From Nitrospirota bacterium (GTDB lineage: Bacteria; Nitrospirota; Leptospirillia; Leptospirillales; Leptospirillaceae): a stretch of 32,014 bases of DNA. Made by a program: the position numbers and the translations under genes. The DNA lies in the NCBI GenBank assembly GCA_021816465.1, contig JAKAYF010000021.1:1-32014 (forward strand), in the 5' to 3' direction. Shown piece after piece: positions 434 to 5,915 of the stretch; position 1 is the stretch's first letter, and each line of letters begins with the position of its first letter. The notes under the pieces were generated by a model, which did no database searches, was not told where the DNA came from, and was given only the letters and a program-made list of their open reading frames with translations.

Positions 434-1681
434 TCAATCGGGTGGAGGGGGGATGGAGGCACCTGTCATTGATTTCCGGTAGAGAAAGAAAAAAAGGATC
501 AGGGAGAGCAGTCCGCATAACGCCCCCAGAAAAAGAGGGGTGTTGGTCATTCCTTTCTTCCAGAAGAAACCTGCCAGTGCAGGACCGAACACCGCCGCGA
601 TTCCAAGGGATGAGAGATGAATGCTCTGTGCCCATCCGGCATGTTGCCGTCTTACCAGTGTTCCCGCAAGAGCCTGCCGGATTCCCCCCGGACCCCGGAG
701 ACAGGCAAATCGGAGCGTGAAGAGAAGACAGGCCCACGCAAAGGATGCTGGCAGGGGCATGAGGAAAAGGGATATGACAGCTATGATCTGGAGGAGGATC
801 GTTGCCCGGAACAGATGTGTGTGAGGCCGGTTTTTTGCGAGAAGGAAGGAAAAAAAGGCTGCGGAAAGGAAGGAAATTCCCAGAACAAGGGAGACTGTTT
901 GAGGTCCCATCTGGAATCTGATCATGAACCAGTATGAGATTGATGGGTCTGTAATCCCCATGGAAAGGCCGAAAAGGGCATTCGACATGGCAAGCACAAA
1001 AAGGTTTTTCTTCTCAGCAGGAAGGAGCGGATCCCCTCCTGTCTCCCCGGTTTCCCCATGCCCCGGGCTTTTTTCGAAGCGGGCCGCCTTGAGGAGCAGA
1101 GCCATATTCAAGAGGGAGGAGAAGACCATGATCAGGAGAAGGTCCCTGAGATTTGCGGAGGGAAGAAGATCCCGGCCATGGGAAAATGCTGCCCCTGCCA
1201 GGGCGCCTGATCCCATTCCCAGAAGCCCCGAGGCAAGGTTGTTGCTGACGCTTGGGAAAAAACGGCTTATATCGGTTGTTCTGAGGAGAGCTGTCTGTTC
1301 AGCTGGAGTAAATGGCCCGGGGGATCCGTTTGAACGTTGCCCAAGTCCTGACAGAGCGGCGGCGATCCAGAGGAACACGGGGTGGGGGTACCACAGAAAA
1401 AACAGGCATGGCGTCATGGTGACGATCTCCCCCGACAGGAGAATGGGGATGCCTTTTATTCGATCAGCCATTCGGCCGATCGCCAGAGTCAGGAGAAAAT
1501 CAAAAAGAAGTCCCGATGAAAGGGCAAGCCCGGCAAAAACAGGGGACCACCCCAGACGGTGAAGATCCGGAAGAAACCATGCGACCAGAAGTCCCTGGGC
1601 GATGCCCCTGAAAAATCGATTCGCAGAAAGGGCCAGGGGGACCCATCTGGATGTGTCCCGGACGACGGGTGGAACGCTCAA
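434..1681 (-). CDS. MFS transporter
   Basis: A 415-residue polytopic inner-membrane protein with about 11-12 hydrophobic segments. A motif-A-like cytoplasmic loop (GRMADRIKG, around residue 70) lies between predicted TM2 and TM3, which is typical of the major facilitator superfamily. The middle holds a hydrophilic, Glu/Lys-rich loop (around residues 205-220) between the two six-helix halves. The substrate cannot be told from sequence; drug or small-metabolite efflux is the usual guess and is inference. The start is TTG at 1681, just one base past the TGA of the GT9 gene, with no good ribosome site of its own, so translation is probably coupled. It shares its general family with the MFS gene at 29179-30387 but not obvious sequence identity. 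Confidence 0.85.
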   Translation of the reverse strand: MSVPPVVRDTSRWVPLALSANRFFRGIAQGLLVAWFLPDLHRLGWSPVFAGLALSSGLLFDFLLTLAIGRMADRIKGIPILLSGEIVTMTPCLFFLWYPHPVFLWIAAALSGLGQRSNGSPGPFTPAEQTALLRTTDISRFFPSVSNNLASGLLGMGSGALAGAAFSHGRDLLPSANLRDLLLIMVFSSLLNMALLLKAARFEKSPGHGETGETGGDPLLPAEKKNLFVLAMSNALFGLSMGITDPSISYWFMIRFQMGPQTVSLVLGISFLSAAFFSFLLAKNRPHTHLFRATILLQIIAVISLFLMPLPASFAWACLLFTLRFACLRGPGGIRQALAGTLVRRQHAGWAQSIHLSSLGIAAVFGPALAGFFWKKGMTNTPLFLGALCGLLSLILFFFLYRKSMTGASIPPPPD

Positions 1682-1682
1682 A

Positions 1683-2930
1683 TCAATGGATCTTTATCCT
1701 GACAAGGGAATCCTGGATCAGTCCGGGAACATGACTCTCATTCTGTGGAGAGTATCTTGCCGGATTGAACCGCCACTCCTGTGGTCCGGGATATTTCCTC
1801 TGGCCAGTCAAAAGAGATTCCATTGCAATGAAGACCGAGTCAGGAGAGATGGCCTGAATGCATTTATTGTCCCCCGCACAGGGCGGTGTCGGGGTATGGT
1901 GCAGACATGGACTGCAATAGATCGGTTCATAGAGGAAAATGCATTTGGGTGGATCGGGACGGTAAAGGACCAGATCGGGGTGGGTTGGTCCGAACATGGC
2001 AACGGTGGGAGTGCCGAGAGCAAGTGCCAGGTGGAGGGGACCACTGTCGTTTGTCAGGAAGAGGGAAGCTTTTTTGAGAAGGGCCGATGTTTCCTGGAGC
2101 GTCAGCTGTCCTGCCACGTTTCGGATGGAACGGCCTGAAGCGGAAAAAAATTCAAAAATTGGCTGGTTGTATTTGTATTCGCCGAGGCTTCCGGTAAGAA
2201 GGACATTGGTTTCCGGAAATTTCCGGAAAAATGACTCAAGCACGGTGATGAAGTGAGTTTTCGGCCAGCGGCGTTCGTGGGACAGGCTTGAGGCATTTGG
2301 ATTGATCATGAGAAGCCTTCGCCGGGGATCAGGCAGGTCAAACTTGTCCAGAACGCGTTCCTGTTCTTTTGAAGAGAAAATCATGGGGATTCTGGGAGAC
2401 TGCGTTAATGGCCCAAGACCAAGAAGGTTTCCTACCTGTCGGAAGACGGTGGCGAGAGGCTGGTGCCTGTTGAAGTAGATGGAGTGTGTGAGAAATCGGT
2501 CCCTTGCCCGGTTCGGAGTGCTTTTGAGTCCTACCCGTATGGGGGCTCCACTTGAAAGCGACAGGAGCATCGAGAGCGACTGGTGGGTATGGATTTGCAA
2601 ATCGATAAAAATCCCCGGCTTGACCATCCGGAGCATGCGAATCTTTTTCCAGAATGACAAAGGGGATCTCAGAAAGTTGGCGATATCCGTTTTGGAAAAA
2701 AGAATTGTTTTTGTGACCTGGGGCAGGATTTTTGTAAGTTCTTCATTTTTGTTATGGGTCAGGAGAATAATATCGGATTTCGGAAAACGATTTTTGAGCG
2801 CATCAAGAAGCGGAATAATTGTGACAAGGCTGCCCCATCCCGAAAATTTGCACACAACGATGGGGGTTGAGTTATTGTTCGCCACCTGTTCTGCTATTTC
2901 AGATGCATGATGGTTCCCGTTGCCTTTCAT
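1683..2930 (-). CDS. Glycosyltransferase family 9 (heptosyltransferase-like)
   Basis: 415 residues with the two-Rossmann GT-B layout of ADP-heptose:LPS heptosyltransferases (WaaC/WaaF/RfaQ group). The N-terminal acceptor domain opens with IVVCKFSGWGSLVTIIPLL, the family's first β-strand and P-loop-like turn. The usual GD at that turn is replaced by GS, as in some GT9 branches. The donor-binding half shows INPNASS around residue 210 and the family signature TNDSGPLHLALALGTPTVAMFG around residue 294. A Cys-rich stretch (YCSPCLHHTPTPPC) follows, common in this family. The expected role is adding a heptose or related sugar to lipopolysaccharide core or another surface glycan at the cytoplasmic face. 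ATG start at 2930. The MFS gene begins 1 nt after its stop, so the two form an operon. Exact sugar and acceptor are unknown. Confidence 0.87.
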   Translation of the reverse strand: MKGNGNHHASEIAEQVANNNSTPIVVCKFSGWGSLVTIIPLLDALKNRFPKSDIILLTHNKNEELTKILPQVTKTILFSKTDIANFLRSPLSFWKKIRMLRMVKPGIFIDLQIHTHQSLSMLLSLSSGAPIRVGLKSTPNRARDRFLTHSIYFNRHQPLATVFRQVGNLLGLGPLTQSPRIPMIFSSKEQERVLDKFDLPDPRRRLLMINPNASSLSHERRWPKTHFITVLESFFRKFPETNVLLTGSLGEYKYNQPIFEFFSASGRSIRNVAGQLTLQETSALLKKASLFLTNDSGPLHLALALGTPTVAMFGPTHPDLVLYRPDPPKCIFLYEPIYCSPCLHHTPTPPCAGDNKCIQAISPDSVFIAMESLLTGQRKYPGPQEWRFNPARYSPQNESHVPGLIQDSLVRIKIH

Positions 2931-3007
2931 AAGGTTCCGGTCCGAATCTTTTCAGAATGCATGGCTTGGGGTCCCTTTCGGGAAGAGCGTTGGCAGACCA
3001 ACGTTTT

Positions 3008-3748
3008 TCAGTCTGCCTGTTGTTCCTCTCCCAGGATCTTTTCATATTCGATTACAGCCTGTGGCGGGAGATTCTTCTTTCCGTGAACCATCGAGGACAG
3101 AAGGTTTGTTCCAAAGGTCAGCTCGCTCATGATGACCCCGCCTATATGGAGAACGACGATTCCGACAATGATATACATTCCCGTGCTGTGAATGTTTGAG
3201 AGCAGGTCATCAATGGATTTTCTGGTCGCGTGGTCCAGAGTGTGGAGGGCTGGTACCGGCCAGTAGCCCCAGTTGAGACTTCCCCAGAGAGCTCCCGTCA
3301 CGATCTGGAGAGGCAGGAGAATAAAAAGGAGCGGAACATAGAGAAATCTTCCCAGCCGGTTGTGGCCTGGTTCGGGAGGTTCTATCGGTTGTCCGTTCCG
3401 GTCTCTCGGAGGGGTTTTATGGATACTGATTTCGTGGCGCAATACCTCCATGACCGATTGTCCTTTTTCGGCAATTCGAAGGTCGCGCGCACGGCTGAAA
3501 GTCTTTCCCCTGAACAGGAGATAAAATCGGTAGAGAAAAAATCCTGTGAAGACAAGACCGACAATCCAGTGCGTTTTCTTGAAAAGCCCGGATGTTTCCT
3601 TGGAAAGTCCCAGCTCCTTGTGCCAGTCAAAGATAAAGGATGTTTCAAGAAGGAGAAGGATGGAAAGGGCATTTGCCCAATGCCAGATCCGAAGTCCGGG
3701 TTCCCATATCGAGGTGATTTTAATGGCCGGTTGGGTGTCGTTGGTCAA
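3008..3748 (-). CDS. Cytochrome b561/Ni-Fe-hydrogenase-type b cytochrome
   Basis: 246 residues with four main hydrophobic helices. The histidine pattern matches the membrane di-heme cytochrome b family (Pfam Ni_hydr_CYTB type): H23 in helix 1 (IWHWAN), H60 before helix 2 (KTHWIVG), and H187 and H201 in helix 4 (SNIHSTG, VLHIGG). Such proteins pass electrons between the quinone pool and a partner enzyme or soluble cytochrome. The partner is not encoded next door, since the neighbours are a GT9/MFS pair and a lipoprotein. The soluble loop between helices 2 and 3 (residues 80-130) is longer than usual and charged. ATG start at 3748. Transcription probably begins from the promoter at 3854-3882, leaving a leader of about 100 nt. 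The family call is firm; the physiological partner is unknown. Confidence 0.85.
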   Translation of the reverse strand: MTNDTQPAIKITSIWEPGLRIWHWANALSILLLLETSFIFDWHKELGLSKETSGLFKKTHWIVGLVFTGFFLYRFYLLFRGKTFSRARDLRIAEKGQSVMEVLRHEISIHKTPPRDRNGQPIEPPEPGHNRLGRFLYVPLLFILLPLQIVTGALWGSLNWGYWPVPALHTLDHATRKSIDDLLSNIHSTGMYIIVGIVVLHIGGVIMSELTFGTNLLSSMVHGKKNLPPQAVIEYEKILGEEQQAD

Positions 3749-3841
3749 TTTTTGTGCTCCTGAGGTGCGATTGGCGTTACCCCCTTGCGGTGTGGATATC
3801 TCCTGTGTTCAAGACAGCAAAAAGAATCCAACACTGGGAGC

Positions 3842-3910
3842 GTCAATTGATGCTGTATATCAGTAAAGATCTTATCGGTCAATTAATGCCGTATATCAGT
3901 AAAGATCTTA
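3842..3910. repeat. Tandem direct repeat, two 33-bp copies with 36-bp period
   Basis: Copy 1 is 3842-3874 and copy 2 is 3878-3910. They share 31 of 33 bases, differing at the 8th and 13th positions, and a 3-bp spacer separates them. Each copy contains GTCAATT, TGTATATCAG or CGTATATCAG, and the palindrome AAGATCTT. They lie 94-162 bp upstream of the cytochrome b start. Read on the minus strand, the junction of the two copies forms the promoter listed separately. The near-identity suggests a recent duplication or a doubled regulator site. Confidence 0.9.
3854..3882 (-). promoter_or_regulatory. Predicted sigma-70 promoter of the cytochrome b gene
   Basis: On the minus strand, TTGACC (3882-3877) is followed after exactly 17 nt by TATACA (3859-3854). 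This is close to the consensus and points at the cytochrome b gene starting at 3748. The -35 comes from repeat copy 2 and the -10 from copy 1. Seen directly as sequence match; activity is inferred. Confidence 0.6.
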
Positions 3911-3935
3911 ACCGTGATCCTTCATTCTGTTTGTC

Positions 3936-4712
3936 TCAACTGCCCCCATCCGGCAATACAAGACGGGCCAGAGGTGTTTTGCAGGCCTTCCCTTCCTGAT
4001 ACGGAGTCAGGGCCAGCTGCAGGTACGAGTCTCCCGCCGGAAGTTCGAGTGTCTGGTGGACAGGACAGAATCCGGAAAAAACAAGATCGAGAATATAGCG
4101 TCCGGCAACCATGGGTGGTGCAATGAATCGTCCGGTCGGGTCAAGAGAAACCTGCCTCGTTGTTTCTCCCGGGCCCTCTGCCGTGAGAAAAAAACTCAGG
4201 GTTGCGGGAGATGATCCCGGTGTTTTGGGGAGTCCATTGATGATGCCGGACAGGAGAGCCGGTTTTTTAAGATGAGCGCCCTCTTTGTCGACCGTCTTCC
4301 CTGACAGGATGATGGTTCCCTGACCACAGTGGATAAAAGAGACTCTGACCAGTTCGATCCTCAAGGGCACCGGCTGTCCCGGGCTCCGGGGAACGATGAT
4401 CTCTCCCTTGATGGGGCAGTAGCCGACCGGTTGCGTCGAGATCAGGTAATGTCCGGGCAGGACATCTGCCACAAACGATCCATCGGATCTTGTCAGAATT
4501 TCCCTGTTGTCGCGGACATCTTTTCCCTTGAGAAAAATCGTCGTATGGTTGATCGGCAGTCCTTCCGAGACGACTGTTCCGGAGAGTCTTGTCCTGTCTC
4601 TTCCGGGGGAGGATGCGCCGTTGATGCTCTGGCAGGATGACAGAAGCGCAAGGGATACCAGAAGTGCCGATAGCAGAAGAGGGAAATAAAGGGCCTGTCG
4701 AGTCTTTTTCAC
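3936..4712 (-). CDS. Lipoprotein with carboxypeptidase-regulatory-like (CNA-B/β-sandwich) domain
   Basis: I choose the GTG at 4712-4710, with a GAAAGG site 10 nt upstream. This gives 258 residues starting with a textbook lipoprotein signal: KK near the N-terminus, a Leu-rich core and the lipobox LLSSC, so that Cys27 is lipidated. The upstream ATG at 4778 would bury this signal behind 22 residues. The mature part has a repeated Ig-like pattern typical of carboxypeptidase regulatory-like domains: RLSGTVVSEGLPI, then RSDGSFVADVLPGHYLI, and again LDPTGRFIAPPMVAGRYIL. Such domains are structural or binding modules on the cell surface. Several cysteines (GYCP, IHCG, GFCP, KACK) are spaced so that disulfides are possible. 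It lies upstream of and codirectional with the cytochrome b gene, but the 187-bp gap carries a separate promoter. Function is unknown. Confidence 0.7.
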   Translation of the reverse strand: MKKTRQALYFPLLLSALLVSLALLSSCQSINGASSPGRDRTRLSGTVVSEGLPINHTTIFLKGKDVRDNREILTRSDGSFVADVLPGHYLISTQPVGYCPIKGEIIVPRSPGQPVPLRIELVRVSFIHCGQGTIILSGKTVDKEGAHLKKPALLSGIINGLPKTPGSSPATLSFFLTAEGPGETTRQVSLDPTGRFIAPPMVAGRYILDLVFSGFCPVHQTLELPAGDSYLQLALTPYQEGKACKTPLARLVLPDGGS

Positions 4713-4961
4713 GAGAGCAAAACCTTTCAACGGAAAACTGTTAGAATTTTTGAAAATCTGACCAGAGGGACTATCCAAAAAGGGAAGAGACAGGATCGAA
4801 CTTGCTGTTCCTCAAGTATAATCAAATTTGTTGTTGTTGGAAAATCGGCAGAACTTGCCTGTGAACAAGGCGGTTTTCCCTATCTGCCCTGTGCCGGACT
4901 TGTTCCTTTCGCAAATGGGCAGGTGACCTGTTTAAGTAATATCGAATCATGAAAGAGGAAT

Positions 4962-5915
4962 GTGAAAAAAAGGATTTTTACTCTTGCCAGAGGCTATTGG
5001 GCCGTTGTCCTGACGACTCTGATATGGGGTTTTCACTATGTTGTTCTTTATGAGCCCCTGAGGATTCTCTCCCCGCGACATTTTTTGACGCTGCGTTTCG
5101 GTTGGGGAGCTGTTTTTCTGTTTCTTCTGGGGAGCAGACTTTTTTCCCTTCTAAGAGGTCTCACACGAGGGCAGTGGGCGGGACTGGCCTTTTTGGCCGT
5201 TCTTTCGACGATTTCTTACCAGATATCCTTCTTTAAGGCGGTATCCCTTCTGGATCCGCTTACGATTTCCCTGATCCTGTCGCTCGGTCCGCTTCTTCTT
5301 GCTGTTTTTGGCCATATCAGTGCAGGTGAGCGGTATAAAAAAATCCAGTGGGGCGGGATGCTGGTTGTTGTTCTGGGGACGGCCGTTCTGGTGGGAGGAG
5401 GTCCACCTGCCGGGCTTGGCCCCTTCTGGATGAGGGGGCTTTTATGGGGAGCTCTGTGTCTTTTCCTCTTTGTTCTTCAGACACTCTGGTCCAGGAGGCT
5501 TCTCCGGACGCTTTCGCCGGTGACTGTAACGGTTCTTCCGATCCTGATCGGGGGAATCCTGATCGCCCTGTCGGATCCGAAAGGACTGCTTCTCGCTCCT
5601 GCCGAAAGCGTTCCTGCGGTGTATTTTGCCCTGTTCTACACGATCCTGATCGCTCTCTATCTGGCCTATTTTCTCTGGAACAGGGCCCTTTCCACCCTGG
5701 GAAGCACCAGAACCAGCTTTCTTGTCAACGGTCAGCCGATTGTGACGGCCTTGGGGGCGATTGTTTTTCTGGGGAAGCCCCTTTCCTTCCATCAGGTATC
5801 AGGCGGGATTCTGATGCTGTCAGGATATGTGCTGTTTTTTGTTCCGGAACTTACTGGTCAATCGATCCCGGAGGAATCTTACGAAGCGGTGTCGGACAGA
5901 AAACCCATGACGTAG
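4962..5915 (+). CDS. EamA/DMT-family transporter
   Basis: 317 residues with ten predicted membrane helices in two EamA halves: about residues 10-145 (starting YWAVVLTTLIWG) and 155-300 (ending FHQVSGGILMLSGYVLFF). The signature layout is that of drug/metabolite exporters of the RhaT/YdcZ/RarD-like superfamily. Members export amino acids, nucleobases or other metabolites across the inner membrane; the substrate here is not predictable. The start is GTG at 4962, with an AGAGGA site just upstream. The gene stands alone, divergent from the lipoprotein at 3936-4712 and convergent with the PLD-like gene, whose stop lies 30 bp past this one. The 249-bp region upstream (4713-4961) must contain the promoter, but I see no convincing -35/-10 pair. 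Confidence 0.85.
   Translation: MKKRIFTLARGYWAVVLTTLIWGFHYVVLYEPLRILSPRHFLTLRFGWGAVFLFLLGSRLFSLLRGLTRGQWAGLAFLAVLSTISYQISFFKAVSLLDPLTISLILSLGPLLLAVFGHISAGERYKKIQWGGMLVVVLGTAVLVGGGPPAGLGPFWMRGLLWGALCLFLFVLQTLWSRRLLRTLSPVTVTVLPILIGGILIALSDPKGLLLAPAESVPAVYFALFYTILIALYLAYFLWNRALSTLGSTRTSFLVNGQPIVTALGAIVFLGKPLSFHQVSGGILMLSGYVLFFVPELTGQSIPEESYEAVSDRKPMT

Follow-up and report, generated by a model that had tools for sequence, protein, structure and literature searches.

The 187-nt gap between two co-directional genes in the window (the whole stretch of 32,014 nucleotides analysed) carries a 36-bp tandem repeat that is absent from two relatives of the same genus, and the junction between its two copies forms a sigma70-like promoter pair, P1, that exists only when both copies are present. 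A second promoter-like pair, kept in three species, stands upstream of the first gene. We somewhat favour an account in which a slippage-type duplication arose inside an operon and left at its junction an internal promoter that is weak and perhaps incidental. The genes and repeat units are as follows.

3936 to 4778, minus strand: cpd, co-directional with the cytochrome gene and upstream of it, encoding a carboxypeptidase regulatory-like domain (Pfam PF13620, E 2.7e-11)
3878 to 3910, minus strand: repeat unit A, upstream, TAAGATCTTTACTGATATACGGCATTAATTGAC, 33 nt (TRF and exact location)
3842 to 3874, minus strand: repeat unit B, downstream, TAAGATCTTTACTGATATACAGCATCAATTGAC, 33 nt, 36 nt from unit A
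3860 to 3871, minus strand: core GATCTTTACTGA of unit B (alignment and exact matches)
3008 to 3748, minus strand: gene for a cytochrome b561-type membrane protein (Pfam Ni_hydr_CYTB, E 3.2e-20)

The 36-bp repeat at 3842-3910, reported in a preliminary description of this DNA, is real: TRF returns a period of 36, 1.9 copies and 93% match. Units A and B lie head-to-tail at a lag of 36 and agree at 31 of 33 positions, differing at two. Chance does not account for this self-match of the gap, since no more than 21 positions matched at the same lag in any of 300 mononucleotide shuffles, and the differences between the two units make a simple assembly echo unlikely. On the minus strand, the gap runs from the end of cpd at 3936 to the TTG start of the cytochrome gene at 3748; this TTG is preceded by AGGAG and is aligned in both relatives. 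The cytochrome protein also matches NCBIfam TIGR02125, a model of the b-type subunit of hydrogenase, at a score below the cut-off. From the start of its protein, the cpd product reads as lipoprotein-like, and cpd more likely begins at the GTG at 4712 than at the listed TTG.

Within the genus, the comparison covers three genomes: that of the window (G000) and two relatives, G001 and G002. The nearest named relative is the Leptospirillum MAG DAHWBS010000006.1, at 87% protein identity, which suggests that the window, too, belongs to Leptospirillum. The gap measures 187 nt in the window against 161 nt in G001 and 160 nt in G002, and each relative carries a single core, GATCTTTATTGAC, at the aligned place; in the alignment, both the tandem and TATACA are absent from the two shorter gaps. 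Two near-identical head-to-tail copies are found in one lineage only. In a family-wide search of 21 genomes, an 85-base stretch containing the repeat matched strongly in the window alone, with chance-level hits (E 0.36 to 2.3) in four other genomes, and a 19-base piece found no match in viral contigs. The two copies differ at 2 of 33 positions, whereas the gap is 63-70% identical to those of the relatives (79-83% for the cytochrome gene), so the duplication seems to postdate the divergence of these species, barring homogenisation of the copies.

An older half-site could have given rise to the tandem. Upstream of its core, G002 carries the diverged TAAAATCTTCACCG, which matches the head of the unit at 11 of 14 positions (P 0.001, one of six tests); a 20-mer and a 26-mer gave P ~0.04 within the same six tests, and nothing resembling a relic of the unit was found by this set in the left flank of G001. 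The TATAC/GCAT part of the unit is missing in G002. Protein trees of the cytochrome and of an aminopeptidase leave the three genus members unresolved, and a codon tree places G002 outside the window and G001 (support 89/88); under this placement the short form would, weakly, be ancestral. In 400,000 sampled bases of G001, we also observed two-copy tandem duplications at locus L075 (15639-15744, 53 bp, 100%) and locus L070 (17301-17385, 40 bp, 88%).

The promoter-like elements around the repeat are the following.

3854 to 3882, minus strand: P1, TTGACC (unit A) and TATACA (unit B) 17 nt apart, spanning the junction (exact location)
3823 to 3828, minus strand: GATTCT, -10 of an older candidate promoter, P0, at the place of GATTCT/GATCCT in the relatives
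4815 to 4843, minus strand: promoter-like pair TTTCCA-17-TATACT upstream of cpd, kept in three species

The spacing of exactly 17 nt given in the preliminary description is borne out: TTGACC occupies 3882-3877 and TATACA 3859-3854. TTGACC matches TTGACA at five of six positions, as expected of a sigma70 -35 element, the spacer falls within the 16-18 nt range (17 and 18 are the enriched spacers in the genus), and a TG stands one base before the -10. TATACA ends in A and thus departs from TANNNT, and P1 is absent from both genus relatives. P1 was scored with an E. coli-like matrix of general base frequencies and with a genus matrix learned on 303 upstream regions of the window's genome and G001, the number of sites behind the latter being small (EM mixing share 0.04). 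By both, P1 is the top sigma70-like site in the gap. It also proved correct that a single copy would lack the pair: when either unit is dropped in silico, P1 is lost and the best remaining score in the gap falls from 7.8 to 3.3 (E. coli-like) or from 6.0 to -3.7 (genus).

Duplication as such seldom produces a site of this quality. We simulated 4000 duplications of 36 bp for each matrix, taking the DNA from 244 upstream regions: the P1 score was newly attained in 0.6% (E. coli-like) or 1.5% (genus) of them, 18-21% of draws being already as good and ~10.5% improved at all. Since few simulated duplications reach its score, P1 is not a trivial by-product of duplication, a rarity to be read with the caveat that the finding was picked by eye out of 32 kb. 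Sites scoring at least as well as P1 occur in 2.5% (E. coli-like) or 7.0% (genus) of 4000 random stretches of 187 nt from the same genome, figures that supersede a smaller first background of 48 stretches (1/48 and 7/48, respectively), and in 20-21% of 105 upstream regions of the genome itself.

In this genus, TTGAC-type sites hardly ever lack a final T in the -10. In the 303 upstream regions, the base following TTGACn-17/18-TANNN is T in 18 cases, A in three (one of them P1), G in one and C in none; TTGACn-17/18-TANNNT occurs at 18 forward against two reverse-strand sites, while TANNNA, TANNNC and TANNNG together stand at four against four. The standard promoter scan omitted P1 because its -10 lacks this final T. 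The -10 consensus learned for TTGAC-type promoters of the genus is TAGAAT, with spacers of 17-18 nt (few sites, from the window's genome and G001).

Transcription may instead enter from upstream of cpd. Here TTTTCCAA and GATTATACTT are identical across all three species, and TTTCCA-17-TATACT scores 9.1 against 7.8 for P1 under the E. coli-like matrix, a value equalled by 0.9% of random stretches. Under the genus matrix it scores poorly, 68% of random stretches doing as well, because that matrix demands TTGAC. Scans of 1600-5500 found no minus-strand terminator-like site, including between cpd and the cytochrome gene. A conserved pair upstream of cpd and the lack of a detected terminator fit, without proving, a single transcription unit. 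A cpd ortholog is present in both genus relatives. The cytochrome has a match in 16 of 21 family genomes, and cpd lies upstream of its gene only in the three loci of this genus, among 16 loci with upstream DNA extracted. The minus-strand sequence AAAATTCTAACAGTTTTC at 4733-4750, immediately preceding the probable GTG start codon of cpd, is likewise identical in three species and could be either a leader element or coding.

Our favoured reading is thus that a slippage-type event duplicated 36 bp in tandem in this lineage, in the gap of a two-gene unit running from cpd to the cytochrome gene. The main promoter would probably be the conserved TTTCCA-17-TATACT, from which transcription would continue into the cytochrome gene; the weak sigma70-like pair at the copy junction would be there by chance and may initiate some low-level internal transcription, for which it was probably not selected. 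The near-identity of the two units, the shorter gaps of the relatives with their single core, the conserved pair upstream of cpd, the lack of a detected terminator, the -10 of P1 without a final T and the other two-copy duplications of similar size in the G001 sample speak for it. Against it stand the rank of P1 as best site in the gap and the few simulated duplications that newly match its score; moreover, the genus matrix places P1 above 93% of random stretches and rates the upstream pair poorly.

The preliminary description had proposed that the duplication may have created or strengthened expression of the cytochrome gene, and a working P1 that sets or raises this expression, perhaps replacing a broken TTGACT-17-GATTCT, is possible, if doubtful. 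The ideal spacing, the TG, the need for two copies and the rarity of such an outcome all argue for it, as do the relatives, in which TTGACT lies 17 nt before GATCCT (G001) or GATTCT (G002) at the aligned place. The window retains GATTCT with its nearest TTGAC (3846-3841) at a distance of just 12 nt, so that P0, if it ever worked, is broken here whatever the copy number, which leaves room for P1 and weighs against our favoured reading. In E. coli, moreover, random DNA easily becomes a promoter (PMC5906472). The missing final T, the share of random stretches that score as high and the conserved pair upstream of cpd all count against a working P1, and P0, the site supposedly replaced, is itself weak by both matrices (5-6% of random stretches are as good under the E. 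coli-like and 27-51% under the genus matrix). The fuller version, in which the duplication created a new internal promoter that replaced P0 and uncoupled the cytochrome gene from cpd in one Leptospirillum lineage, we consider unlikely. Of the original proposal, then, the pair itself, its dependence on two copies, its rank in the gap and the absence of tandem and TATACA from the relatives stand; the role of P1 as promoter of the cytochrome gene finds no support, given its -10, the conserved pair upstream of cpd and the absence of a detected terminator.

Two further readings give the repeat itself a function. That it is an operator pair for a regulator, with either the palindrome AAGATCTT or the conserved core GATCTTTAYTGA at its centre, seems very unlikely, although the core is kept at this place in three species. 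The palindrome, put forward earlier as a possible regulator site, lies on the minus strand at 3909-3902 and 3873-3866 and is broken in both G001 and G002, which leaves that suggestion weak; it occurs three times in 20,368 upstream bases, two of these being the repeat, versus 27 times in 335,690 bases overall. With up to one mismatch, the core GATCTTTAYTGAY is found at 58 places in the three genomes against three for a reversed-pattern control, and with up to two mismatches the 15-mer TCAGTAAAGATCTTA is found at nine places in the window's own genome, two of which are the repeat and the other seven of which compare with one for the control, a reversed word being a poor control for codon-like words. 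Placement by locus covered all six exact core matches in the three genomes and part of the 52 one-mismatch places: four exact matches belong to this locus, two of them in the window, and the other two fall inside long ORFs, so that no second intergenic site was found among the six. A looser regulon may exist around the near matches, yet neither a conserved palindrome nor, among the exact core matches, recurrence before other genes was found, and the 36-bp spacing, at ~3.4 helical turns, would not place the copies a whole number of turns apart. We regard a role for the repeat at the RNA level, whether as a structured leader or as a site of processing between cpd and the cytochrome gene, as highly improbable. 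Pairing of the two copies through AAGATCTT is possible in the fold predicted for the gap, but the z-score of -1.5 is not significant, with 14 of 200 shuffles folding as well, and Rfam gave no match in 3500-5100 up to E 1.

A different arrangement is seen upstream of orthologous cytochrome genes in other genera (g5 and others), where a TATGAT-type -10, preceded by TGTG, lies within an inverted repeat, TGTGGTATGATG...CATTnTACCACAGA (loci L044-L049, L052-L055 and L057, identified by eye and not equally clear in all). This looks, from its sequence, like an operator over a promoter, and the cytochrome gene seems to be divergent to its neighbour in these loci.

Should P1 work, nature would have built a promoter here in a single step through a short duplication, and copy number would be a reversible switch for the expression of a membrane cytochrome in a lineage of iron oxidizers. 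Should it be idle, the locus would illustrate that perfect spacing of a hexamer pair says little unless the -10 fits and the pair is conserved. In the partly covered literature (titles and the starts of abstracts), we found neither a promoter formed where the copies of a short tandem duplication meet nor mapped transcript starts from Leptospirillum.

Short two-copy tandem duplications arise by replication slippage, and the repeat resembles these in that two almost identical units, some tens of bases long, are joined head-to-tail and confined to one lineage; here the copies lie in the gap of co-directional genes, and their junction is promoter-like. Gene-scale amplification is reportedly another way in which tandem duplication raises expression. 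Increased expression is invoked in both cases, but here the unit is 36 bp and no gene is copied. A further parallel is with de novo sigma70 promoters: Yona et al. 2018 (PMC5906472) showed that point mutations in non-promoter DNA can give expression. In both cases a small change brings TTGACA-like and TATAAT-like hexamers into register; there the changes are point mutations with expression, whereas here the change is a duplication, with an imperfect -10, known from sequence.
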